The notes below the pieces were generated by a model. It was given only the letters and a program-made list of their open reading frames with translations, had not been told where the DNA came from and did no database searches. Of a stretch of 38,648 nt of DNA, positions 954 through 13,225 are shown piece after piece. The stretch covers positions 1 to 38,648 of the forward strand of contig NZ_JACJPY010000038.1 of the NCBI RefSeq assembly GCF_014696345.1, in the 5' to 3' direction. The stretch's first letter is position 1; each line of letters opens with the position of its first letter. The translations under genes were made by a program, and so were the position numbers. Source of the DNA: Pseudanabaena cinerea FACHB-1277. Its GTDB lineage: Bacteria > Cyanobacteriota > Cyanobacteriia > Pseudanabaenales > Pseudanabaenaceae.

Positions 954-3238
954 GGGGCTAGTTGATCGCGTCCCCTAGCGAGTAGGGGATGTAGTTGCTG
1001 CTGTGCGTATTCCTATGTTTATGCCGTTTCCAATTGATCGCGTCCCCTAGCGAGTAGGGGATCTTGAGCAGTTTGTCCAGAGCATTGAATCGGAATAGTT
1101 TCCAATCGATCGCATCCCCTAGCGAGTAGGGGATCGCCCTGCATTACGCAAATCTTGATATCCAAGCGCTAAAGTTTCCAATCGATCGCGTCCCCTAGCG
1201 AGTAGGGGACACCCGTATATGCAGCAGACAAACTCAATCCCGCAAGTTTCCAATCGATCGCGTCCCCTAGCGAGTAGGGGACTAATCAGCGTGGCAGTCT
1301 CTGTAGTGACACTTTTGTTTCCAATTGATCGCGTCCCCTAGCGAGTAGGGGACTAGTAAAAACCTGTCGAGTAATTACCATGAAGAAGTTGTTTCCAATC
1401 GATCGCGTCCCCTAGCGAGTAGGGGACATCGGGCTGAAATGCGATCATTGCGGGTATCACACGTTTCCAATCGATCGCGTCCCCTAGCGAGTAGGGGATT
1501 AACAACCCTGTGAATATGCTACAGGGTGGAGGCACGTTTCCAATCGATCGCGTCCCCTAGCGAGTAGGAGAAATACGGCTCTAACACTACCTCCATTTTT
1601 GTACCTGCGTTTCCAATTGATCGCGTCCCCTAGCGAGTAGGAGACTCACATCATGGACTCCGAAGTTTTATGTCTTCGGGCTGTTTCCAATCGATCACAT
1701 CCCCTAGCGAGTAGGGAACAAAAGGTGAGAACGATGGTTTCAGGCTGGCTAAGTTGTTTCCAATTGATCGCGCCACCTAGCGTGTAGGCGAATGAATTTT
1801 CTGACTTTTTGGGTGAAGTAACGATGTTTCCAATCGATCTCTTCCCCTAGCGAGTAGGAGAGTTGATACTAAGAAAGTATCGGCACTGATTGATGAGGCG
1901 TTTCCAATTGGTCGCATCCCCTAGCGAGTAGGGAAAGTACAAGTATGGATTCCACAATCTGAAGCTGGCAATACATTTCCAATCGATCGCGTCCCCTAGC
2001 AAGTAGGAGATCATCAAACGAGTCCTCTACCTCGATCGTGTTTTCAGGTTTCCAATCGATCACGCCCCCTAGCGAGTAGGGAAGTTGTCTGTGGTTTTTT
2101 GTGTGGGAATACCAAAAGCGGTTTCCAATCGATCGCGTCCCCTAGCGAGTAGGGAACTGATATGTCTGATTACCGTAAGCGCAGTGTGGCTAGTTTCCAA
2201 TCGATCGCGTTCCCTAGCGAGTGGGGACAATCACGATGGTACGATCACAAAACAGATAAGCCATAGTTTCCAATCGATCGCGTCCCCTAGCGAGTAGGAG
2301 ACCAACACAAGCGAGAACCGCCTGACTGGAACCAACGGCAACGGGTTTCCAATTGATCGCGTCCCCTAGCGAGTAGGAGAATGGGGCAAATTTTCTGTCC
2401 TGATATTGTTGGGGCGTTTCCAGTCGATCGCGTCCCCTAACGAGTAGGGAAGTTATTTGGGAAAATGTACGAAATGTGATCGCTAAGTTTCCAATCGATC
2501 GCGTCCCCTAACGAGTAGGAGACTCTGCGGAGAGATTGAAGACTTGATCGACATTCTACGCTTTCCAATCGATCGCGTCCCCTAGCGAGTAGGAGACGCT
2601 TTTTTTTGTCCAATTCGATTAACTTTTTAACGTTTCCAATCGATCGCGTCCCCTAACGAGTAGGGAATGTAGTAGAGGACTACTCAACATGCGAGAGAGA
2701 GGCGTTTCCAATCGATCGCGTCCCCTAGCGAGTAGAGGTAGGGTTTAACAAGCAATCTAATGTCTGTGCTATCTAGTTTTCAATCGATCAAGTCCCCTAG
2801 CAAGTAGGAGAGTTATTGGTTTGTACTGATTTTATTTCCGTGGGTGAAGTCGAAAATAGGGAAAATAAGAGATCGGCTATCTCCTCTTCGTACTCAGGGG
2901 CATCTAGTCCTAGCAATTTAATTTCCTCATCAAATTGTTCCTCGCTTTCAGTTTCGGCGAAAGCTATGACCACAGCTTTTTTCTGTTCGTCTGTCATTTC
3001 ACGCATCCTTGCTTACTATTTCTATTGTCAAGCCATGAATTTAAAGCATCCATACTGATTTGCGGGTTCGCGTCCCCTAACGAGTAGGGGGAATGTTCAG
3101 AGGGCTTCGTCACGTCAAGAGTACATCAAGTTTCCAATTGATCGCATCCCTTAGCGTGCAGGGGATTAATGATTTCGCTCACGATCAAGCAAAGGTTTAC
3201 TGGTTTCCAATTGATCGCGTCCCCTAGCGAGTAGGAGA
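954..3238 (-). CRISPR. CRISPR array, 29 repeats of 36 bp, type III-B-like
   Basis: Twenty-nine 36-bp repeats start at about 954, 1026, 1098, 1174, 1246, 1317, 1391, 1463, 1536, 1609, 1683, 1756, 1826, 1900, 1975, 2048, 2121, 2193, 2266, 2345, 2416, 2487, 2561, 2632, 2704, 2776, 3056, 3130 and 3203. Spacers are about 34-43 bp, except a 244-bp gap at 2812-3055. Plus-strand repeats begin GTTTCCAATCGATCGCG and end CCCCTAGCGAGTAGGGGA. Read on the minus strand, the repeat is a 7-bp hairpin (TCCCCTA, CTCGC loop, TAGGGGA) followed by a tail ending GATTGGAAAC. That end is typical of cyanobacterial crRNA handles, so I assign the minus strand, co-directional with the cas operon. The repeats at 954 and 3056 have decayed outer ends. 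The first eight repeats (954-1498) all end TAGGGGA; later ones are mostly TAGGAGA or TAGGGAA. No cas1 or cas2 is nearby, so the array may be static or supplied in trans. Confidence 0.97.
2797..2997 (-). CDS. Small acidic ORF inside the CRISPR array
   Basis: A 66-residue ORF fills most of the 244-bp gap between repeats 26 and 27. It reads MTDEQKKAVVIAFAETE..., then a strongly acidic stretch (ESEEQFDEEIKLLGLDAPEY, EEEIADLL). The last few residues and the stop codon lie in the repeat starting at 2776. An upstream in-frame ATG at 3006 is also possible; AAGCAAGG lies just before it. The composition is protein-like (regular hydrophobic spacing, no low-complexity run), unlike the repeat-spanning ORFs elsewhere in the array. 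I do not recognise the family. It could be a real small gene, the end of a broken gene, or an over-long spacer captured from a phage or plasmid gene. Confidence 0.4.
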   Translation of the reverse strand: MTDEQKKAVVIAFAETESEEQFDEEIKLLGLDAPEYEEEIADLLFSLFSTSPTEIKSVQTNNSPTC

Positions 3239-3277
3239 CTAATTTTGATACTGCCAAAACTGACAATAACTCATCAG

Positions 3278-4861
3278 CTAATAAGAAGCGATCGCCTTAA
3301 TCACCTCCTCCAAATCCTTATGCACCTGTGACATTAAACTAGCAGATTTTAAGGATACAAAAGACTGACCAGCGACTAAATTTAAACAATCAAGCAAAAT
3401 CTTTGTCCATTGCTCCTGATTCCCTTTACCCCAAGCCTCATAAACCTCTTGGGGAGTCATTCCCCTTAACCGATGAAACAACTCGTTGCGTTCATCCGCT
3501 AACTGTTCCCAAACAATCGAAATTGGATGATCAGTTAACCGTGAATTCGGTTCAAACGTAGATTCAAATAGCGTGTATAGAACTCGCCCATACAAACCAA
3601 GCTTATTACGATTTAAATCATCCTTTTGATTTGGATATTTCAGAGCATTTCCAAATTTAGCATCAATCGTATGTTTTGCAATTGGCGAACCTTCTTTATC
3701 ACCACGATAACGCCTAGAATCATATTCTCGAATTTTACTACCCCTTGCATCAAGCGCAGGATTACCATTGCGATCTAGTTTAATGAAACTGTAGTGAATA
3801 TTAGAACCATGAGTCGCGATCGCCCATTCACAAATCAGCCCCTCGATCGCTCTCACACTATGAAAAAGCGCCTCAGTCGGATCGCCATTTTTCATCCTCA
3901 CCACAGCCAGATAAGCCATCTCATAACCCTTCCACCACCATTCCCTAACTCGAATAGGTGTCACTAATCCCATCCTGTTAGCAAACTCATCAAACTTAGC
4001 CGCATTCCACAACTTCGCCAGTTCCAGTAAATGCTCCAACTTCACCTTTAGCACAGAATCTTCTAACTCTAGACTTTGCACAACACTAGCAACCCCAGCA
4101 TAATCATCCCTTGCCAGCAAATCCTCTAACTTCTTAAATTGCAACGTCTCAAAATAGGACGACCCCTTTAAAAACTTAGTCCTATCTGGCGCTAACTCAC
4201 TACTAACCAGAAATTCCACCTTTTTACCAAAGCGAATCAAACAAGTTAACTGCACCGCCGAAGAAATTGCAGGAGTCCCCGCCTGATGACTCACAATCAC
4301 GCGATCGCTTTTAGAAATCCACTTGTTTTCCTCCCACCTCGCCAACTCCAACCTTACTAGCGTCAATGTCGCATCCCAATCATCTAACCCATCCGCCCCC
4401 TGTTGCGGTTTCAAAACCGAAAATTCAATCTTTTCATTGGCAAACTTTTCACCGAACGCTTGCGTAAAATAATGCTTCAAAATTGGCTGAAGCGTATATG
4501 TATCCTGCCAATAAGGACAAGCAGCATCACCGCGACTGTAATCATCAAAAATTGCCTCCTGATCGGTCAGCAAAACAATAATGCGATCGGGCTTATTCTT
4601 TTTATCAGTCTTAAACTCCTGACAAAAGCCATCCAACAAAGGAAAAGTCAAACGCTCCCAATATGTCTCAATTGCATCACCATAGGCAATTCCCATTACC
4701 CTTGCTGGCAAAGTCAACAAATCACTATTACTCTCTTCTGTTGGAGAAAATCCACAGGAATATAATTGCTCAATTTTTTTAATCCGCAAATGTCCCCAGC
4801 CAGTATCATCTGTCAGCTTGACATCACTATTACCCGTCGTCACAATCCAAACTACAGACAT
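3278..4861 (-). CDS. CARF-HEPN ribonuclease of the Csm6/Csx1 type
   Basis: A 527-residue ancillary RNase of type III CRISPR systems. In this family the N-terminal CARF domain binds cyclic oligoadenylate made by Cas10, and the C-terminal HEPN domain then degrades RNA non-specifically. CARF signs are WIVTTGNSDVKL at residues 5-16 and SHQAGTPAISSAVQL at 191-205 (the nucleotide-binding GTPA loop). The HEPN catalytic motif is RNELFH, R458 to H463 (Rx4H). It is the last gene of the cmr operon and ends only 39 bp before the first CRISPR repeat. Its ATG lies 37 bp after the upstream Uma2 gene. The GGDD motif of the operon's Cas10 fits a cyclic-oligoadenylate signalling pair. I cannot decide between the Csm6, Csx1 and TIGR02710-like subfamilies by eye. 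Confidence 0.85.
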   Translation of the reverse strand: MSVVWIVTTGNSDVKLTDDTGWGHLRIKKIEQLYSCGFSPTEESNSDLLTLPARVMGIAYGDAIETYWERLTFPLLDGFCQEFKTDKKNKPDRIIVLLTDQEAIFDDYSRGDAACPYWQDTYTLQPILKHYFTQAFGEKFANEKIEFSVLKPQQGADGLDDWDATLTLVRLELARWEENKWISKSDRVIVSHQAGTPAISSAVQLTCLIRFGKKVEFLVSSELAPDRTKFLKGSSYFETLQFKKLEDLLARDDYAGVASVVQSLELEDSVLKVKLEHLLELAKLWNAAKFDEFANRMGLVTPIRVREWWWKGYEMAYLAVVRMKNGDPTEALFHSVRAIEGLICEWAIATHGSNIHYSFIKLDRNGNPALDARGSKIREYDSRRYRGDKEGSPIAKHTIDAKFGNALKYPNQKDDLNRNKLGLYGRVLYTLFESTFEPNSRLTDHPISIVWEQLADERNELFHRLRGMTPQEVYEAWGKGNQEQWTKILLDCLNLVAGQSFVSLKSASLMSQVHKDLEEVIKAIASY

Positions 4862-4898: not shown

Positions 4899-5474
4899 TC
4901 AAATTCCTGCTTTTACAAAAAACTGCTCAACCGTCACCGCCAACTCTGGAAATAACTCATCAGTCAATAGGCGATCGCCCCGATAAGTCTCAGGAGCGCG
5001 ATCGGGATAAAAAACAGTCAAGGTTCTACTCAACGGATCGATTACCCACACCCGCAAAATCCCCGCATTCAGATAGTCTCCAGCCTTCACTACAAACTCG
5101 CGAAAAGTCTGCCCTTCTGACATAATCTCAATCACCAACTCAGGCGACACAGGACACATCTCATTACCCACATCCGTAGGCAAACGCTCTAACGAGATAT
5201 AGGTCAAATCAGGCACAGGACACCAATCCTGACCATTACGAGTCAACACAATTCCCCATTCAGGATAAACAAAACCCTTACCCTCAAATAGATCGCCCAA
5301 GTACCGATATAAAACACCCTGAAGGGCTGCATGAAATCTTTTTGGAGACACTTTTTTCACCATTTGACCATCAACAAACTCATAGCGATCGCCCGACTCA
5401 GGGCTAGCCAAAAACTCAGCCAGTGATATTTTCTGACCCAGAGCCTTTTCCAATACCCGTTCTACAGCAATCAC
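4899..5474 (-). CDS. Uma2-family nuclease-like protein within the cmr operon
   Basis: A 191-residue Uma2-family protein with a near-complete core: DRYEFVDGQMV (about 29-39), CPVPDLTYISL (PD motif, about 85-95), PELVIEIMSEGQTFREFVVKA (E strand and helix) and LRVWVIDPLSRTLTVF. The usual K/Y pair after the E strand appears as VVKAGDYLNAG. The start is GTG, supported by GAGAGG 8-10 nt upstream. It sits between the PD-(D/E)XK-like gene and the CARF-HEPN gene, 37 bp from the latter and in the same direction, so it is probably co-transcribed with cas genes. Uma2 genes are so common in cyanobacteria that insertion by chance is possible. It belongs to a different Uma2 subgroup from the copy at 175-825. 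Confidence 0.85.
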   Translation of the reverse strand: MIAVERVLEKALGQKISLAEFLASPESGDRYEFVDGQMVKKVSPKRFHAALQGVLYRYLGDLFEGKGFVYPEWGIVLTRNGQDWCPVPDLTYISLERLPTDVGNEMCPVSPELVIEIMSEGQTFREFVVKAGDYLNAGILRVWVIDPLSRTLTVFYPDRAPETYRGDRLLTDELFPELAVTVEQFFVKAGI

Positions 5475-5530: not shown

Positions 5531-6136
5531 TTATAAAAACTCCCTCACGATTGTATTAAAACAACTCAAAATCCGATCAAGCTCATTGAGATAGAAAACA
5601 TTACGATCAAGGATCAGCAACTTATTTTCTAACTTCAAAAACTGCCATAAATTGCCAGTCGTCACACATCCATAAACCTTATCCAAGGTCTCACCATGCT
5701 TTTGGTTATAGCGAATTGCCCCATACATTTGAGCAGCACATTGCCCTAACCCATTCTCTAAGTTATCGCGCTTCGCCTCAACGATCGCCATAATTGGCGT
5801 GCTAATAAAAGTTGCCGTCGAACCCTTACCAAGAATAAAATCACATTCTCCTACCAGTCCCGCCTCGCGATCGCTATCAAGGTTTTTACCCGAATAAATA
5901 GCCAACTGTGTCGAAAAATGTGCCTCTACCTCTAACAAAATTGGTGCAATAATAAACTCAGATTTCGCCTTTTCACTACTAGTCGTAAGAGCAAACTTCT
6001 TACCTTTCGCAAGAGTTTCCAATAACCAACTACTAACCTGAATCGTACTTTCTTGAGATGCAAACAAGTCCTGCTCAATAAAATCAAGAGAGAACTTATC
6101 TATAATCTGTTCAACCGTAAAATCACTGTAAGCCAT
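5531..6136 (-). CDS. PD-(D/E)XK nuclease-like protein in the cmr operon
   Basis: A 201-residue protein. From the ATG chosen here (MAYSDFTVEQIIDKF) it has SEKAKSEFIIAPILLEVE (acidic helix), GECDFILGKG (D strand), PIMAIVEAKRDN (ExK strand) and GQCAAQMYGAI (Q helix), in the order expected for the PD-(D/E)XK fold. A TTG 11 codons upstream (6169) would lengthen it but lacks a clear ribosome site. It lies 77 bp downstream of the double-RAMP cmr gene and 56 bp upstream of Uma2, all leftward. It could be an ancillary nuclease of the CRISPR operon or a passenger; similar stand-alone proteins are common in cyanobacteria. The nuclease fold is inferred from motifs only. Confidence 0.6.
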   Translation of the reverse strand: MAYSDFTVEQIIDKFSLDFIEQDLFASQESTIQVSSWLLETLAKGKKFALTTSSEKAKSEFIIAPILLEVEAHFSTQLAIYSGKNLDSDREAGLVGECDFILGKGSTATFISTPIMAIVEAKRDNLENGLGQCAAQMYGAIRYNQKHGETLDKVYGCVTTGNLWQFLKLENKLLILDRNVFYLNELDRILSCFNTIVREFL

Positions 6137-6171
6137 AGTCTTAATTCTTGCATCATAGAAGTGAATCAACC

Positions 6172-6213: not shown

Positions 6214-7944
6214 CTATTCTATTTCCCAAGGCTTTCCCCATAACTGTTTAAACTGTCCATCATCTGCAAGAAAATTAAGAAAATTCAAACAATCATCAGA
6301 ACCATCTGGAAAGATCGTTAATAACTCAAGATAACTAGCAGTTGGTTTAGGAATCTTTTTTGCTGGATCATTAGGATCAGGCTCCAACTTCATCAAAGGA
6401 TACATCCTATGCCACAGCCGCCCAATCTGTCCCACCCTTCCAGTTACCGAAGATTTATAAATGGATAGTTCAGAAATCTGGGCTTTATTGTCCCTCTTTT
6501 GATAAGCCCCATGTAACCATTGAATTGCCTCAGAACTTTCTCTATTAATCGAAATTCTGCCCCAAACCTGCACTTTGTCAGGATGCCAAGCCTCTCGCCA
6601 ACCAGTCGCATAACTTGCAGTCAACTTAACATTTTGCAGTTGTAACCAAGCTCTAGCCGCCTCCTGCAATTTATCTAGAAAACCTGCTACATATTTTGGG
6701 CTATAAACCTTAACATCGCGAGCAAAACGCCCTTTTTTCCATTGCCAATGACAACCAATTAGCGGCTTCCTGTAGTTATTCTCTTCGTAATATTCCTCAT
6801 AAAATAAACGATGATCGGCTCTGCGCCACGACTTACCAAATCCACCAAAAATCATCGCAAACTGATTCAGATGCAAAATCAGATTTTTTAAAGCCGCCTT
6901 AGGTTCTTCTGAAATATCTTGCGACAATAGCCAACCAAGTTCGCCTTCTACCTTATAGCTAGGCACTTCCCATTGACCATTACCAAATAATTTCTCATCA
7001 AGGCTGGTTGTGACAAAGTTCATCATCAATAAGCCCCATACACCATGCCCTGAAACACCACCAAAAATTCTCTCGACTTCTCGCTTTGCTGTCTCCGCAT
7101 CTGTCAAACCACCAAAAATCCGCAACGCATGACCACGAATCGCCGCCCGAAAAATATTTGGGCGAAACTCGCCAGATTCATCTAAGCGCTTTGATGCCAT
7201 CCCCTGCCCTTTCAACAGATGCGGCGGATACAACAACTCACCCTTTAACTGATCGCGATGACCATAACCTGCGGAAACCCGACAACCAATCCCACGACCC
7301 AGCGCCGCTTCCCAAATTTGCCAGATCTCATCCCACTCAGACCCCTCAAGCTCCTCCGAAGCCGAAATTCCAAACTGAATTGTAGGTTGATAGAGCGAAA
7401 TTTGGATTTTGGCTCCTTCTTTTTCACTATTCATCACCTGTAACTTTTGCTGCGGATGAATGAGATCAACTAACCCATCAGTCCAACTGCTATCTACAGG
7501 ATAACCACCATGAAAGCGCAAAATTCCTGGAGAGAAATCCCCTTTAGAAATCTCCTGTCCGCAATATTTACCAAGGCGATCGCTAAATAACCGATTGCAA
7601 GCCTGACGAAAAGCTCCCTTCATACTCGAACCTGGGTAAAAGGGATAGCCAGACGCACCAATGACAGGACGAATCACGCCATCATCCTGACCTGAATTCG
7701 TCACAAATCGCCAACTAATCGTATATTCTTGCGTTTTGACTGGTTCCTCAAATATCGGCGCAACAGGATAAGTTTCACTTGTCCACTCTTCACACCAGAT
7801 CTCAGCATCTTGAGACTCTCTAGGTTTATTGTGTTTGGGATCTGCTTTACGGGCTTGATCGAGAAACTGTAATTGACACCGACCTTTAGTCTGTGCCTGA
7901 AACATCATCGGCACTTTTTTATAAGCATCGGGAATATTTGACAT
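6214..7944 (-). CDS. cmr6: Double-RAMP Cmr protein, Cmr6 with a Cmr1-like second half
   Basis: A 576-residue RAMP protein of the type III-B effector complex, much longer than ordinary Cmr6 (about 200-350). The first half has the RAMP signature PGSSMKGAFRQAC (residues 104-116) and a glycine-rich loop GRGIGCRVSAGYG (216-228), as in Cmr6. The second half has NIFRAAIRGHALRIF (273-287) and VERIFGG (290-296), resembling the lRgalRf...E..lFG pattern of Cmr1. No separate cmr1 is present, so I infer a Cmr6-Cmr1 fusion capping the complex near the crRNA 3' end. It starts 18 nt after cmr5 and has TAGGGAC as ribosome site. The RAMP assignment is firm; the fusion is inference. Confidence 0.85.
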   Translation of the reverse strand: MSNIPDAYKKVPMMFQAQTKGRCQLQFLDQARKADPKHNKPRESQDAEIWCEEWTSETYPVAPIFEEPVKTQEYTISWRFVTNSGQDDGVIRPVIGASGYPFYPGSSMKGAFRQACNRLFSDRLGKYCGQEISKGDFSPGILRFHGGYPVDSSWTDGLVDLIHPQQKLQVMNSEKEGAKIQISLYQPTIQFGISASEELEGSEWDEIWQIWEAALGRGIGCRVSAGYGHRDQLKGELLYPPHLLKGQGMASKRLDESGEFRPNIFRAAIRGHALRIFGGLTDAETAKREVERIFGGVSGHGVWGLLMMNFVTTSLDEKLFGNGQWEVPSYKVEGELGWLLSQDISEEPKAALKNLILHLNQFAMIFGGFGKSWRRADHRLFYEEYYEENNYRKPLIGCHWQWKKGRFARDVKVYSPKYVAGFLDKLQEAARAWLQLQNVKLTASYATGWREAWHPDKVQVWGRISINRESSEAIQWLHGAYQKRDNKAQISELSIYKSSVTGRVGQIGRLWHRMYPLMKLEPDPNDPAKKIPKPTASYLELLTIFPDGSDDCLNFLNFLADDGQFKQLWGKPWEIE

Positions 7945-7962: not shown

Positions 7963-8367
7963 CTATTTTTTCTTATAGCGCTGAGTCCACCAAACCAAAC
8001 AGTCGCAAAGCTGCGTCAGCACAGCGATCGCCACCCGTTGATCTTGAATGTCTATCTGCCAAAGTTTTTCTGCCATAGACCTTACAGCTTTCTCATTGTC
8101 TGATTGCACAGGATCGTTGGGTATTTTTACCCCAGCTTTTAGCATCACTGCCACAAGCTGATCCCAAGTCTCTTTCCAATACTTAGCTTTATACTCATCT
8201 GCTTTCTTACCTTGCAAGCGTAAATGCTCACCCCAGAAACGCTCCAAGCCATAAGCCACGGCGACACGCATCTTAAAGGCTTGCCCCAAAGAATCCTTAT
8301 CACGTTCTTTCGCATCTAGAACCAATCTTTGAGCAATGCGATCCAAATCATAGGTTTTCCAAGCCAT
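7963..8367 (-). CDS. cmr5: Cmr5, small helical subunit of the type III-B complex
   Basis: A 134-residue, mostly helical, basic protein. In III-B complexes several copies of Cmr5 line the inner filament facing the target RNA. The C-terminus VLTQLCDCLVWWTQRYKKK and the N-terminal DLDRIAQRLVLDA look like cyanobacterial Cmr5. Its ATG overlaps the cmr4 stop by one base (TAATG), which indicates translational coupling. Its identity rests on size, helix content and the fixed operon order cas10-cmr3-cmr4-cmr5-cmr6; the sequence itself is weakly conserved in this family. Confidence 0.85.
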   Translation of the reverse strand: MAWKTYDLDRIAQRLVLDAKERDKDSLGQAFKMRVAVAYGLERFWGEHLRLQGKKADEYKAKYWKETWDQLVAVMLKAGVKIPNDPVQSDNEKAVRSMAEKLWQIDIQDQRVAIAVLTQLCDCLVWWTQRYKKK

Positions 8368-9197
8368 TACTGATACTCTCCTGCAAGTGTGACATTACAA
8401 CGACCAAAGCCAACCGACTCCAAACCACCAAAATACATATCCTGTGAAGCGCGATCGCCAAAAGGTTTCCAGCCTAATTCCTTCAAAGCGATCGGAAATA
8501 TTAAAACGCTTCCCTCTGGCAAAGCCTCCACATTAAAAAAGGCTCCTCCATCCACCTTTTTCATATCGTCCATCATCTTGATGCGACTCTGGCGATACAA
8601 AGCCATGTCATGCAACATCGCAATATCGTTATCGCCAACCACCACCAAACTCTCAACCGCCAGATCTACACCTTTAGGAATCCATTTCTGCATTGCTTCA
8701 GCTTCGATTTGATGCTCGATTTCCATAAATCCAAGGTTGAAAAATAGGATTTGTTTAGCAGTACCGCGATCGCTAATTTGACGACCCCGCAGAGTTTTCG
8801 CCGATGTGTAAGGTTTTGGGATAGCGTCTGTAGATCCCGTAATCAATTTGTATCGCTTAAGCAATCTTGGGCAACTAATCCAAACTACAGGCTGTCCTGG
8901 ACAAAATACAGGCAACCAAACCAGCGAAGCATATTCAAATTTGACGATCGCTTCCGTAGTCCCGCCATCAGGTCTACCCTCCACAGATTCATGTCCATAC
9001 CATGTATTCTCTGAACCCTTATCCGCCTCGCGCATATCTGCCCGAAAGCGTCCACGAATCGAACTACCAGCAATAATCCCCGTCTGCGTAAATTGATCGC
9101 GAAAAATCAAATTGAGATTACCAGACTCCTCACCTGCGGCAGCGCCAACATGCAGAGGTGCTAGGGTTTCAATAATTCCATAGGCTTTTTTGTACAT
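8367..9197 (-). CDS. cmr4: Cmr4, backbone RAMP subunit
   Basis: A 276-residue RAMP that forms the crRNA-binding backbone of the complex and normally cuts target RNA at 6-nt steps. The RAMP signature is GIIAGSSIRGRFRADM (residues 40-55) with IETLAPLHVGAAAG (9-22) at the N-terminus and MYFGGLESVGFGRCNV near the C-terminus. In Cmr4/Csm3 the catalytic Asp lies in a D-N/L-P-I-x-R pattern. The corresponding stretch here is LNLIFRD, with Leu28 at the Asp position, so slicing activity may be lost. The start overlaps the cmr3 stop by one base (TAATG). Confidence 0.93.
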   Translation of the reverse strand: MYKKAYGIIETLAPLHVGAAAGEESGNLNLIFRDQFTQTGIIAGSSIRGRFRADMREADKGSENTWYGHESVEGRPDGGTTEAIVKFEYASLVWLPVFCPGQPVVWISCPRLLKRYKLITGSTDAIPKPYTSAKTLRGRQISDRGTAKQILFFNLGFMEIEHQIEAEAMQKWIPKGVDLAVESLVVVGDNDIAMLHDMALYRQSRIKMMDDMKKVDGGAFFNVEALPEGSVLIFPIALKELGWKPFGDRASQDMYFGGLESVGFGRCNVTLAGEYQ

Positions 9198-10282
9198 TAA
9201 TCCTCTCCTTTTTGTGTAATTTTTTGGTCAGCTTTCGGCTCAGCTTTAGGCTCGATTTTGATTTCCACAGGTAAGCACAAACCACAACCAAACTGCCGCA
9301 ACGGTAGCCCCTCACCCGATGCAAACCACTCAGGCGGGAAGTCCCACCAAGTGAGATCGAGGGGATGTTTGACCACATAAACCGTTCCCGCAGGCACAGC
9401 ATAGCGACCAATGCTCAACTTACTGGCGCGTTTATTTTGTGCCTCACCTTTACCCACACGATAACGCCAAGGTTCAGGGCGATCAGTCAGCATCTCAGGA
9501 CGCTTATTGCTAAAGCGCACATCGTTAGGATAGCGAGTTGAGAGATTATTGCTTCCCCACACCGCAGGCGTAATCAGTGCAAAACTCCGCCCGATTTTTT
9601 GCTTCAGTAGTTTGCAGATGGAACTATGCTCTGTAATTGCCTGACTGGTGATTTCGACAATGTGATTTTCACCACCAAAGCGATACCAACCATCAGGCAA
9701 TTTATGCGTCGAGAGATATACCAAACAGCTATCTTCCCTTATCTGCACAGCGTTCTCTAAAAACAATCCATCGCGATCGCGGACATGTTTCTCATCATCC
9801 TTGAGATAGGGATGCAAAATCGGCATGAATTCCCAAGGAGTTTTGCCAACATCATTCAACTTGCCTTTTTCAGGGCGCTTTAGCTGTGGGGTTTGCTTAT
9901 GCCAAGAATTAATACTCTGCCATTGATATTCAGGATCAAGATCGGGATGTTGACGCTCCCATTTGTTATTGATTAGCGTCCACTCATCAAAATCCTTATT
10001 CTTCTCACCCACAATGCGCGATCGCGGAATCGGCACAAAGAAGTTTTCAGGATGATCTGACTCCGCCCAAAAAGCTCCAGCTACAGCCAGATTAGTTTTT
10101 AGCTCTTGATGATCGCTAAACTTCTGCTCTTGATTTGTCGCCAAAATCAACCCCGAAAGCGTTCCCGCATCAGGTGGAAATTTTGCGCCAGAGCGTCCAA
10201 CTAAGTTTGCAGGAGAGAGAAATGCGCCAGCACTGCCATAGAGCAAGCCCAACGGACGTATCACAATTAGGAATTTGAACAT
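9197..10282 (-). CDS. cmr3: Cmr3, crRNA 5'-handle RAMP subunit
   Basis: A 361-residue Cmr3, which together with Cas10 binds the crRNA 5' handle. Family signs are FKFLIVIRPLGLLYGSAGAF (residues 2-21, the LxPLxxLxxxxGxF start), FPPDAGTLSGLILA (36-49 region) and the C-terminal PLRQFGCGLCLPVEI. I chose the ATG at 10282, preceded by GGGGTGG; a GTG three codons earlier is possible. It overlaps the end of cas10 by 16 bp and couples to cmr4 by TAATG. A long polar tail (KPEAEP/KADQK type) follows the RAMP core. Confidence 0.93.
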   Translation of the reverse strand: MFKFLIVIRPLGLLYGSAGAFLSPANLVGRSGAKFPPDAGTLSGLILATNQEQKFSDHQELKTNLAVAGAFWAESDHPENFFVPIPRSRIVGEKNKDFDEWTLINNKWERQHPDLDPEYQWQSINSWHKQTPQLKRPEKGKLNDVGKTPWEFMPILHPYLKDDEKHVRDRDGLFLENAVQIREDSCLVYLSTHKLPDGWYRFGGENHIVEITSQAITEHSSICKLLKQKIGRSFALITPAVWGSNNLSTRYPNDVRFSNKRPEMLTDRPEPWRYRVGKGEAQNKRASKLSIGRYAVPAGTVYVVKHPLDLTWWDFPPEWFASGEGLPLRQFGCGLCLPVEIKIEPKAEPKADQKITQKGED

Positions 10283-11847
10283 AACTGCCACCCCACTTTA
10301 ATCATGCCATCAATCCATTCAATCATCGATTTGGGATCTTCAGATCCTGTAATTTTTCCACGCTGTTGAGAGAGAATTTCCTGCTTGTCTTCACCGAAAT
10401 ACAACCCAAACAACTCAAGCGCGATCACATCACTTGCTTTGTCATCCGTCGCAGGTGGAATCGCATGACGAGCCTTGAGTTGTGCCAGATCGGTGTATAC
10501 ATGGCTCCATTTCGCATCTTTGCCAGTATCGTCATTGCGATCGCGATAATCTGCTAACCAAGCTAAATATTCCCAAGGCGTAGTCCATTGCACAAATTGA
10601 CCATTGTTAAACAGAACCCGAATTGTCACGCGATCGCGACCTAAATTCTTAGCCAGCTTCTCAGCCTCACGGCAATGCTGCAACACATCACGCTGCGGCA
10701 CACTATGCCCCGCCCACACAAACCCAACACTGAGAGAAATTCCCAAATTGCCAGATTGCCAATCTTCACGCAAACCTATCAACCAGTCAATCGCATCTGT
10801 CCCGTTAAGATGTACTCCTTTAGTGTCGCTATACATCACACCAAAAAAATCATCACCTCCCGCATAAACAACTCGCCCTCGCCTCTCTCGTTCAAATCTA
10901 TCTTGAAAGCCACTACCCCAAGTTCTTAGCTTATCGCTAAATTCTGTTACTGCCTCAGCATCATGAGGGATAGGAAGAGCAGACAACTTTTTAAGATATT
11001 TGCCAACTTCATCACCATCACCCATAAACCATCCTGTCCAATAACCTGATTTATCATCTTTGCGAAGCATTTCTCGAAAGCTGGGAGAGTAAAGTTCAGG
11101 ATGGATTTTATTAGCGATCGCTCTATAGGTGATTAAACGCTTAATCAGTTCAGGAATACTAAGCCGTTCATTTTCATTAATATAAGCACGATCATTTGGT
11201 TCTCCATTAGGATCGAGAACCTCGGCAAGTTGACTATAAAAGTTTTTAACCTCTTCGTCATTTAAACCCAAGCTATCCATATTTGGATGCGCGATCGCAT
11301 CATAGCCAGATAAACTAGAACTCTCACCATTCCAGTTTGGTACTATCCAATCGCGGCGGAGTTTACGAGTTTCCAGATCGCGCATTGCCTCATCAATCGT
11401 CTTGCCAGTACCACAAAATAATTCCCACGCATGATTCTTCCATCGCGTCCAAGAACTTATCCATCCAACTTCTGAGATTTGTAAATTCTCTGTAAGCCAG
11501 TTGTGACATTCAGTGACGATTTCTTTCCAACCTTCGGCAAGTGCGCTGTTCACATATCCTTGCAAAAAATCACCTTGAATTAAGATACGGTTTGGCATCC
11601 CTTGGATTATGTTTGCATTACCCGCCACACCATTATTAGCAGGTGAGATAACCCTAAACCCTGAATCTTCAGCACGTTTAACGATCTTCCAGCTTAGGTA
11701 CGAAAGAATTTTTGAAGCACCATCAAGATCGCGCAACTTACGAGACTTCTCGATAAAACCTTGCACAGGCGCAAAGGTAATCACCGTATATTTGGCGATT
11801 TTTGGCTCTTGTGTTTGTGGCTTTTCACTAATTTGTAATGCTGTCAT
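10267..11847 (-). CDS. cas10: Cas10/Cmr2, cyclase subunit without an HD domain
   Basis: A 526-residue large subunit of the III-B complex. The active Palm domain carries VVYAGGDDFFGVM with GGDD near residues 330-333, and a second Palm-like segment FMGDGDEVGKYLKKL lies near 274-288. It begins directly with the Cmr2-specific domain YTVITFAPVQGFIEKSRKLRD, so the N-terminal HD nuclease domain of many Cas10 proteins is absent, as is a histidine-aspartate pair. An intact GGDD predicts cyclic oligoadenylate synthesis on target binding, matching the CARF-HEPN gene downstream. Start: ATG at 11847 with GAGAGG 8 nt upstream; GTG at 11850 is adjacent. It is the first gene of the leftward operon and is divergent from the WYL regulator. 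Confidence 0.95.
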   Translation of the reverse strand: MTALQISEKPQTQEPKIAKYTVITFAPVQGFIEKSRKLRDLDGASKILSYLSWKIVKRAEDSGFRVISPANNGVAGNANIIQGMPNRILIQGDFLQGYVNSALAEGWKEIVTECHNWLTENLQISEVGWISSWTRWKNHAWELFCGTGKTIDEAMRDLETRKLRRDWIVPNWNGESSSLSGYDAIAHPNMDSLGLNDEEVKNFYSQLAEVLDPNGEPNDRAYINENERLSIPELIKRLITYRAIANKIHPELYSPSFREMLRKDDKSGYWTGWFMGDGDEVGKYLKKLSALPIPHDAEAVTEFSDKLRTWGSGFQDRFERERRGRVVYAGGDDFFGVMYSDTKGVHLNGTDAIDWLIGLREDWQSGNLGISLSVGFVWAGHSVPQRDVLQHCREAEKLAKNLGRDRVTIRVLFNNGQFVQWTTPWEYLAWLADYRDRNDDTGKDAKWSHVYTDLAQLKARHAIPPATDDKASDVIALELFGLYFGEDKQEILSQQRGKITGSEDPKSMIEWIDGMIKVGWQLCSNS

Positions 11848-11860
11848 CACGATCGCCTCT

Positions 11861-12043: not shown

Positions 12044-13225
12044 ATGCCTAAATTTTCACAAACCCATCCCTACAGCGATCGCCAAGCATTCGAGCGATTA
12101 ATGTTGCTGATAGCAACTTTTTTACAAAATCCTAGCATCGGCAGTCCTGAAGCATCGCCTCAAAATGACGATCAACCCCATAATGCCCTCGTAGCCGTAA
12201 AACAACAACTCGAACAACTCGCCCAAGAAATGGGTATCACTATTAATAACATTGCCATTCCCACCCTTCGCAAAGACCTCGTAACCCTCCGTAAATATGG
12301 CATCTTAAACAATCGCATCTATCGCTGGGGCTATTACCTCGGCACAGGTGTGATGACCAAACAAGAACTGAATGTCGCCCTCAATGCCCTAGCCTCCCTA
12401 GCCGAATATCAGCGATCGCCGAATATTATTAGAATCTATGAATCCCTAGTCAAACGATTACAGGGACTAGATGCCGAAGAAAATAGCAAACTGCTTTATC
12501 CCGTGCGATCGCAAATCAATCATCTCATCGTCACCACCGACCTCGAAGATCGCATCAAGAAAAAACAAGCCCAAAATCGCCATACCCTATTTGACAGCCT
12601 CTCCACCGTCGAGCAAGCAATTCTTAACGGACAAGCGATCGAAATTTACCGACATACCGATCCCTATGCCGATAATACTGGGGCGGTAACAGTCTATCCA
12701 TTACAACTTATTTATCACGACATTGCTTGGTACTTACTCTATGAGAACTGCGAAAACTCTCACTTTATGATCGTGCGCGTCGATCGCCTAACCGATAAAT
12801 GCCTAGAAATTCCATTGCAAACTCGCAGCTTACAAACCCAAAAACAAAGCCTAGATCTAGCGCACCAGCTTCTCGCTAACGGTTGGGGCTTAAACATGGG
12901 CGAACTAGAAGAACAAATGCAAGAGCGCCAAATGGAATTAGAATTTAAGAAAGTCACCGTGCGATTTTTTGCCCCCGTCATTCAATTCATCGAAGAAGGA
13001 ACCTATCGTCACCCTTCTCAAAAAATTGACTCAAGACGCAAACCAGAATCTATTGATTTACATCTAACATTGCCACCGCGATCGCTAAATGAATTTAGTC
13101 GCTGGGTCAATCGCTTTATGGATCGGGCGATCATACTTGCTCCAGAAAGTTTAATGATACAGCAAGCTAAATCTGCCCAGAAACTCGCCGATCTCTATAG
13201 ACAGCAAATTATAAACAAGCCCTAA
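12044..13225 (+). CDS. WYL-domain transcriptional regulator
   Basis: A 393-residue regulator with an N-terminal winged-helix region (NIAIPTLRKDLVTLRKYGIL and YRWGYYLG, about residues 68-100) and a WYL ligand-binding domain containing VYPLQLIYHDIAWYLLYE (about 217-234) and FMIVRVDRLT. WYL proteins often control defence loci; in Synechocystis 6803 the WYL protein Sll7009 represses a CRISPR array. Here the gene is divergent from cas10 with a 197-bp shared control region containing a palindrome near its own start. I infer control of the cmr operon, probably as a repressor that also regulates itself. The C-terminal WCX-like part (RSLNEFSRWVNRFMDRAIIL) is present, so the protein looks complete. Confidence 0.85.
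   Translation: MPKFSQTHPYSDRQAFERLMLLIATFLQNPSIGSPEASPQNDDQPHNALVAVKQQLEQLAQEMGITINNIAIPTLRKDLVTLRKYGILNNRIYRWGYYLGTGVMTKQELNVALNALASLAEYQRSPNIIRIYESLVKRLQGLDAEENSKLLYPVRSQINHLIVTTDLEDRIKKKQAQNRHTLFDSLSTVEQAILNGQAIEIYRHTDPYADNTGAVTVYPLQLIYHDIAWYLLYENCENSHFMIVRVDRLTDKCLEIPLQTRSLQTQKQSLDLAHQLLANGWGLNMGELEEQMQERQMELEFKKVTVRFFAPVIQFIEEGTYRHPSQKIDSRRKPESIDLHLTLPPRSLNEFSRWVNRFMDRAIILAPESLMIQQAKSAQKLADLYRQQIINKP

Follow-up and report, generated by a model that had tools for sequence, protein, structure and literature searches.

Orientation and stem variation of a CRISPR3-related repeat array beside a type III-B operon in Pseudanabaena cinerea FACHB-1277

The described system closest to the locus studied here is CRISPR3 of Synechocystis sp. 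PCC 6803, a type III-Bv array for which the CRISPR3 passages of Scholz 2013 (PMC3575380) report RNA-seq-mapped crRNAs, a repeat of sequence GTCTCCACTCGTAGGAGAAATTAATTGATTGGAAAC, a 13-nt tag (AUUGAUUGGAAAC), a start site 1 nt before the first repeat and an accumulation that was unaffected by three cas6 knock-outs. RNase E is described as recognizing the CRISPR3 stem-loop and cleaving downstream of it (PMC10989914), a role attributed to Behler 2018 as cited in PMC7283877 and in PMC10989914. In its treatment of repeat stems, Kunin 2007 (PMC1896005) took compensatory and G:U changes as evidence for an RNA intermediate, and orientation tools, as outlined in PMC12638026, make use of both repeat mutations and structure. 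The structured repeat clusters of Kunin 2007 were compared between organisms, in contrast to the repeats within one array that are considered here. Two further loci, the III-B locus of Leptolyngbya boryana plasmid pLBX (L157) and an array of Pseudanabaena biceps PCC 7429 (L075), are compared below. In the literature on Pseudanabaena and CRISPR, no title among the matches listed named the present array.

The window analyzed, that is, the whole stretch of 38,648 nucleotides, is the entire contig C112 of the 4.77-Mb genome of P. cinerea FACHB-1277. To the right of the array, it carries a minus-strand type III-B operon of cmr2, cmr3, cmr4, a small gene, a large RAMP gene, two accessory genes and a CARF-HEPN gene, with the following features.

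3278..4861, minus strand: CARF-HEPN (Csm6/Csx1-like) gene, R-x4-H at residue 458
4899..5474, minus strand: Uma2-family gene (putative endonuclease) within the operon
5531..6169, minus strand: conserved gene, 212 aa, 94-96% identical in three relatives
6214..7944, minus strand: large RAMP protein, Pfam RAMPs 21.5 bits, just under the cut-off of 22.1
7963..8367, minus strand: small gene at the Cmr5 position, 134 aa; Leptolyngbya pLBX has a small gene at the same place
8367..9197, minus strand: cmr4, Pfam RAMPs above cut-off, NCBIfam TIGR02580 72.5 bits, below the cut-off of 87
9197..10291, minus strand: cmr3, Pfam Cas_Cmr3 above cut-off
10267..11850, minus strand: cas10/cmr2, GGDD at residue 331, Pfam Cmr2_N and Cas10-Cmr2_palm2 above cut-off
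12044..13225, plus strand: divergent WYL-domain regulator; a WYL gene is likewise divergent beside cmr2 in Leptolyngbya pLBX

The locus thus has the components by which type III-Bv is recognized, a Cas10/Cmr2 with palm domain and GGDD motif as well as Cmr3, Cmr4 and RAMP subunits in one operon, although the NCBIfam Cmr2 model scored 61.9 bits, below its cut-off of 79.4. The CARF-HEPN protein is 35% identical to its positional counterpart in Leptolyngbya pLBX and scored 22 bits with NCBIfam cas_csm6, far below the cut-off of 150. Relatives of the large RAMP protein are found on plasmids, some of them annotated as RAMP superfamily, and the 134-aa protein at the Cmr5 position had no family match in Pfam or NCBIfam. 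No Cas6 match was found among the ten locus proteins scanned, and the two Cas6 matches of the genome lie on other contigs. Like Synechocystis CRISPR3, as described in the passages cited above, the locus has a hairpin repeat with an ACTCG loop and a ATTGATTGGAAAC end, a Cmr2-containing operon without its own cas6, and a leader that is very short or absent, but the stem differs in sequence and length, and the window has the small gene at the cmr5 position and the CARF-HEPN gene. It shares with Leptolyngbya pLBX the order WYL-cmr2-cmr3-cmr4-small gene-RAMP-CARF followed by the array, with operon and arrays on one strand, whereas pLBX has another stem and loop and has kept csx18-cas1-cas2 after the array, with a second array beyond. 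The P. biceps array belongs to the same repeat family and lies downstream of an orthologous operon, but there ~260 nt separate the CARF gene from the array, and the repeats are near-uniform and fixed for a U-G form.

The array itself comprises 29 repeats of 36 nt at 954-3238, spaced ~73 nt apart and divided into two groups, three beside the cas operon (3056, 3130, 3203) and 26 beyond (954-2776), with a gap of 244 bp.

954..2811, minus strand (crRNA strand, as inferred below): array segment B, 26 repeats of 36 nt
1191..1209, minus strand: example 7-bp hairpin, UCCCCUA-CUCGC-UAGGGGA, in the consensus repeat 1174-1209
2812..3055, no strand: repeat-free 244 bp between the segments, holding a minus-strand 65-codon ORF
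3056..3238, minus strand: array segment A, repeats 3056 (truncated), 3130 and 3203, adjoining the cas operon
3239..3277, minus strand: junction of 39 nt from the CARF gene stop to the first repeat

Similar junctions were present in G007, G011, G014, G017 and G019, with no long leader. Both groups terminate in a repeat that is degenerate at the plus-strand 5′ side, repeats 954 and 3056 being truncated at that end, so that the terminal repeat 954 is degenerate at the crRNA 3′ side. The piece at 2812-3055 is possibly a former trailer flank, and it had no match in the other related loci compared. A different piece, 356 bp with a 100-codon ORF, lies inside the G019 array (L068 11364-11719) and, at 95% identity, in the trailer flank of the G014 array (L066 9918-10273); because of this match, arrays of this kind have probably fused. 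The seven full-length repeats at 1026-1463 all have GGGGA (P = 4e-5 under random order, in a post hoc test), and this uniform block sits at the operon-distal end, the opposite of what polarized acquisition predicts.

Taken as a whole, we hold with good confidence that this is a type III-B(v) locus related to CRISPR3, with a minus-strand precursor in line with the operon, a repeat of hairpin plus tail, and repeats that are decaying. In the mechanism we propose, a crRNA precursor would be read from the minus strand along the cas operon, and each repeat would fold into a hairpin with a single-stranded tail behind it that ends AUYGAUUGGAAAC. On the model of CRISPR3, RNase E may recognize the hairpin and cut the tail, leaving a 13-nt tag. 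The locus would have lost, or never had, csx18-cas1-cas2, so that the array would probably gain no more spacers and its repeats would drift, with conservation of the inner stem and of most tag positions.

The crRNA is very likely made from the minus strand, given the homologous Synechocystis CRISPR3, the co-orientation with the operon and the array ends. On this strand, the repeat end is ...GATTGGAAAC, like that of Synechocystis CRISPR3; it terminates ATCGATTGGAAAC, and its last 13 nt are identical to the CRISPR3 tag at 12 of 13 positions. The strand ending in GGAAAC was the operon coding strand in all 14 loci counted (the window and 13 related), of which eight, the window included, are from Pseudanabaena and are not independent, the others being G031, G053, G097, G282, Leptolyngbya pLBX and TIOX110. 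TIOX110 and Leptolyngbya were counted despite their differing loops, and TIOX110 also has repeats of another type on the same strand. Three loci were left out of the 14, namely, a Synechocystis B12 plasmid (L156), whose related operon is accompanied by an oppositely oriented array with repeats of another type, a Gloeothece plasmid (L159) with a related operon and a co-oriented array of another repeat type upstream, and G174, with an array on the same strand upstream of a weak cmr2 match. That the plus strand instead makes the crRNAs seems to us extremely improbable. The most uniform repeats do lie at the low-coordinate end, where a plus-strand leader would sit, and the consensus folds equally well either way (predicted −10.2 kcal/mol for the minus-strand and −10.8 kcal/mol for the plus-strand form of the example hairpin), but the CRISPR3 homologue is transcribed from the GATTGGAAAC-ending strand, the 14 operon-array pairs are all co-oriented the other way, and the low-end repeat is truncated like trailer repeats.

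Searches for targets and signals were also made. Phage records searched with whole arrays (window, L062, L065) gave no match for the window and only weak gut-phage matches otherwise, and among plasmid records, the window array matched a Pseudanabaena plasmid that carries a copy of the repeat and, weakly, one from Planktothrix, with no usable protospacer. Pieces of 22 nt from 4 of the window's 27 spacers had no match in viral contigs, Rfam at gathering scores gave nothing in the window, and a promoter/terminator scan (8 vs 7.7 and 6 vs 4.8 in shuffles) gave no excess.

The original prediction had proposed that repeat variants keep the hairpin through G-U pairs on the minus strand only, and the pairing within the array is as it described. 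TAGGAGA occurs ten times (1536, 1609, 1826, 1975, 2266, 2345, 2487, 2561, 2776, 3203) and TAGGGAA six times (1683, 1900, 2048, 2121, 2416, 2632), and repeat 1756 keeps all seven minus-strand pairs, two of them as G-U. Over the 27 full-length repeats, with the truncated 954 and 3056 excluded, the minus strand has 21 G-U cells and 4 mismatch cells, the latter in three rows (2193, 2704, 3130), whereas on the plus strand 2 cells are G-U and 23 are mismatches, the latter spread over 20 of the 27 rows. Those three rows are the ones already named as breaking a pair; the estimate of two or three is nevertheless slightly low, since the truncated repeat 3056, whose final base G breaks a minus-strand pair, brings the number to 4 of 29. 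Judging from its letters, repeat 2193 may carry a one-base deletion instead of substitutions.

Whether this bias reveals selection on a minus-strand RNA, as had been argued, is a separate matter: a minus-strand crRNA is very likely on the other evidence given above, but the within-array wobble bias is weak proof of it. Compared with a neutral model, the expected excess of compatible changes appeared when each repeat was counted, with 21 stem transitions compatible with the minus strand and 3 with the plus strand (binomial p = 0.0003) and 13:11 for non-stem transitions (Fisher p = 0.024), but not with columns as units (p = 0.13) or arrays as units. For the latter, six degenerate Pseudanabaena arrays with 140 repeats were pooled, 24 of 306 repeats, including 954 and 3056 of the window, having been dropped before the counts for more than five differences or an inverted loop. 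By rows, the pooled stem ratio was 113:10 against 76:46 outside the stem; with each change counted once per array, it was 18:9 against 30:20 (Fisher p = 0.63). In eleven arrays counted once per array, the stem ratio of 24:9 (binomial p = 0.014) stood against 36:24 outside (Fisher p = 0.26). The stem excess rests on two columns, 34 and 35, because without them the once-per-array ratio falls to 7:9. The column 34 variant occurs in all six degenerate arrays and the column 35 variant in five, and with such recurrence the two may be alleles that the arrays share. Because column rates differ widely, we rejected a mutation model with one uniform rate.

We propose that U-G is tolerated in place of C-G at the outer pairs of columns 34 and 35 while the inner stem is kept, a tolerance that would give the observed wobble pattern. 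The rival reading, to which we give somewhat less than an even chance, is that these columns hold two old alleles or mutation-prone edges that happen to be G to A and drift, with no signal of selection, in an array that has stopped gaining spacers. It draws on the confinement of 17 of the 21 minus-compatible transitions to the two columns, on the array incidences and the 7:9 ratio above, on column tests of p = 0.13 and 0.24, and on G097, where the first two bases vary widely over 48 repeats, so that an edge can be unconstrained. Covariation over 92 distinct Pseudanabaena repeats hardly beats shuffles either (26/500), and slid structures give as many both-side changes. Variants are clustered, like copied alleles, in G007 (p = 0.008) and in G005 L061 (0.03), but five degenerate arrays have no clustering (p = 0.10 to 0.83), which fits repeated independent change better. 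Against this reading also stand the direction of change, 104 G to A vs 3 others at columns 34-35 compared with 71 vs 24 at non-stem G columns (rows, six arrays), the pooled row counts of stem and non-stem, the conservation of the inner stem pairs and the occurrence of both variants in one repeat only once. Strand-biased cytosine deamination on a transcribed locus, acting without RNA structure, would likewise make a plus-strand G to A excess and is to our mind improbable. Non-stem changes do lean to G to A (25 vs 17 C to T array incidences, in 7 and 6 columns), and columns 10 and 15 are among the most variable non-stem columns, but the tendency is weak (p = 0.77 and 0.62 in the column tests), and the commonest non-stem change of all, C10T in 29 of 140 rows, would arise on the opposite strand. 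With so little bias in the non-stem columns, we rejected strand-biased mutation as the chief cause. As an indication of the coding strand, single-array wobble counts are weak unless the non-independence of repeats is handled.

G097 was considered as a counterexample, with C opposite A on the crRNA strand, and was rejected as such: the first two bases of its repeat are free to vary, so that no pair exists there. The G001 array is fixed for the U-G form in 25 of 25 rows. One spacer is common to the window (1826-1935) and G019 (L068 10813-10922), with 37 of 38 positions identical; the repeats flanking it differ at 6 of 72 positions, against 1 of 38 in the spacer, and are not visibly more constrained. 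The repeat that follows this spacer is of the GA form in the window, and G019 has the AG form there. Changes at columns 10 and 15 (seen, for example, at window 1026-1061 and 1683-1718), C10T and the 21 of 140 rows with G15A/T, are among the commonest. The passage on M.Ssp6803I of Synechocystis in PMC6604393 describes m5C at CGATCG sites, and by analogy, columns 10 and 15 would be both cytosines that such an enzyme methylates in CGATCG, making deamination a possible cause.

Selection on the hairpin does appear in two other places, in compensation across genera and in the contrast between a conserved inner stem and a drifting loop. With a covariance model of the repeat (R1), 40 of the 388 genomes of the class gave matches, and the CRISPR3-type family features, a 5′-side hairpin and a conserved ATTGGAAAC-type 3′ end, are present. 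An alignment of 18 sequences (A3), from 13 outside genomes and five Pseudanabaena forms, contained full compensations at pair 2 (U-A/C-G), pair 3 (C-G/G-C/U-A) and pair 6 (U-A/C-G); three of the outside rows (G368, G029, G027) rest on one copy each, some Pseudanabaena rows were picked for varying, and the row named G071 was read from the G097 locus L115, which has the same letters. It had 16 both-side-changed cells against 5.8 when shuffled (0/500), a test in which related sequences can beat shuffles without structure, and at most 3 in slid controls. In all, 91.3% of stem cells were paired and the final TGGAAAC was invariant, while the outermost pair was formed in 7 of the 18 and unpaired in 11. 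Within the six degenerate arrays, 12 of 1260 inner-stem cells had changed, compared with 44 of 700 in the loop and 56 of 560 in the linker; by array, this amounts to 11/54 for the inner stem vs 22/30 for the loop (p = 0.0004), and in the window alone to 5/243 vs 7/135 (p = 0.13). These cross-genus and inner-stem tests support the hairpin and not the strand, and homologous repeats of other genera are a much stronger test of the hairpin than within-array wobble. The window array belongs to ordinary cyanobacterial CRISPR immune memory, with a hairpin that is conserved across genera.

The two wobble variants avoid each other. In 35 pairs of common variants over the 140 repeats, only G34A/G35A was strongly associated (p = 9e-7, the next being 0.008), the single repeat with both comparing with 8.8 expected from within-array shuffles, 0 of 20000 of which were as low. 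In the predicted fold of the double form, the hairpin is lost to pairing of the 5′ UUUCC with the tag. A tentative and rather doubtful idea, based on this modelling, is that in spacer-static arrays selection on the crRNA precursor would allow one U-G, at column 34 or 35, and never both, because the double form would let the 5′ UUUCC pair with the tag GGAAA and misfold. A neutral reading remains alongside it, as the fourth combination would also be absent if adjacent sites carried three old haplotypes. If the one-wobble limit is true, repeat decay would be a readout of memories still in use.

The decay of the repeats was compared with the presence of the adaptation module. The genes csx18-cas1-cas2 adjoin the array in G005, G006, G031, G053, G097, G282 and Leptolyngbya pLBX. 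Neither the window nor the examined stretches of G001, G007, G011, G014, G017, G019 and G022 yielded them, an absence that holds within these stretches, as the window ends at the contig ends and the stretches of the relatives are limited. The genome of the window has only two cas1 matches, both beside arrays with other repeats and 29-30% identical to the Leptolyngbya cas1, compared with 57-67% for cas1 genes beside this repeat family. Of the marks of an active array, an adjacent cas1-cas2 and a leader, the window has neither, the 39-nt junction being all that precedes the first repeat. Its repeats differ from their own consensus by a mean of 2.15 positions, similar to G011, G014, G017 and G019 (1.56-2.24), while the mean is 0.22 in G005 (L062), 0 in G006, G031, G053 and G282, and 0.94 in G097, which also has cas1 and falls to 0 from position 3 on, its first two bases varying. 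The zero-difference counts favor uniformity because this set was filtered to GGAAA-ended repeats with good stems and some loci overlap; G054 gave none. The mean was 0.6 in G022, with five repeats only. The degenerate repeats fit an array that is no longer adding copies, and loss of the module is a likely, not a proven, cause; the match of cas1 loss with repeat decay is imperfect because G001 (0.32) and G007 (0.25) are homogeneous with no cas1 in the examined stretch. Among the Pseudanabaena loci, arrays that adjoin cas1-cas2 can naturally be compared with arrays that do not, and repeat constraint could tell there whether an array that is unable to learn is still used.

Of 26 genomes of the window's genus, 20 matched the repeat core at least once, and in named genome records, 11 of the 12 stretches with the core were from Pseudanabaena and one was from Elainella saxicola. 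The otherwise uniform G006 array (L155 6850-7898) contains a 1049-bp insertion with a 303-codon ORF that, from its sequence, looks like a transposase. The genome of the window has two other long arrays with other repeats (L152, L153, L154; C79, C98), near cas1 and cas6, one of 107 repeats and one of 112 and 43 in two stretches. Lone repeat copies lie outside arrays at L024 1501-1519 (own genome, C13) and in L097 (contig C3 of G004). In single repeats at L062 9228-9263 (plus-orientation repeat 980) and L066 11368-11403, the hairpin core is seemingly inverted, the loop CTCGC (or ATCGC) replacing GCGAG on the strand that starts with GTTTCC, which looks as if it arose by inversion between the palindromic arms.
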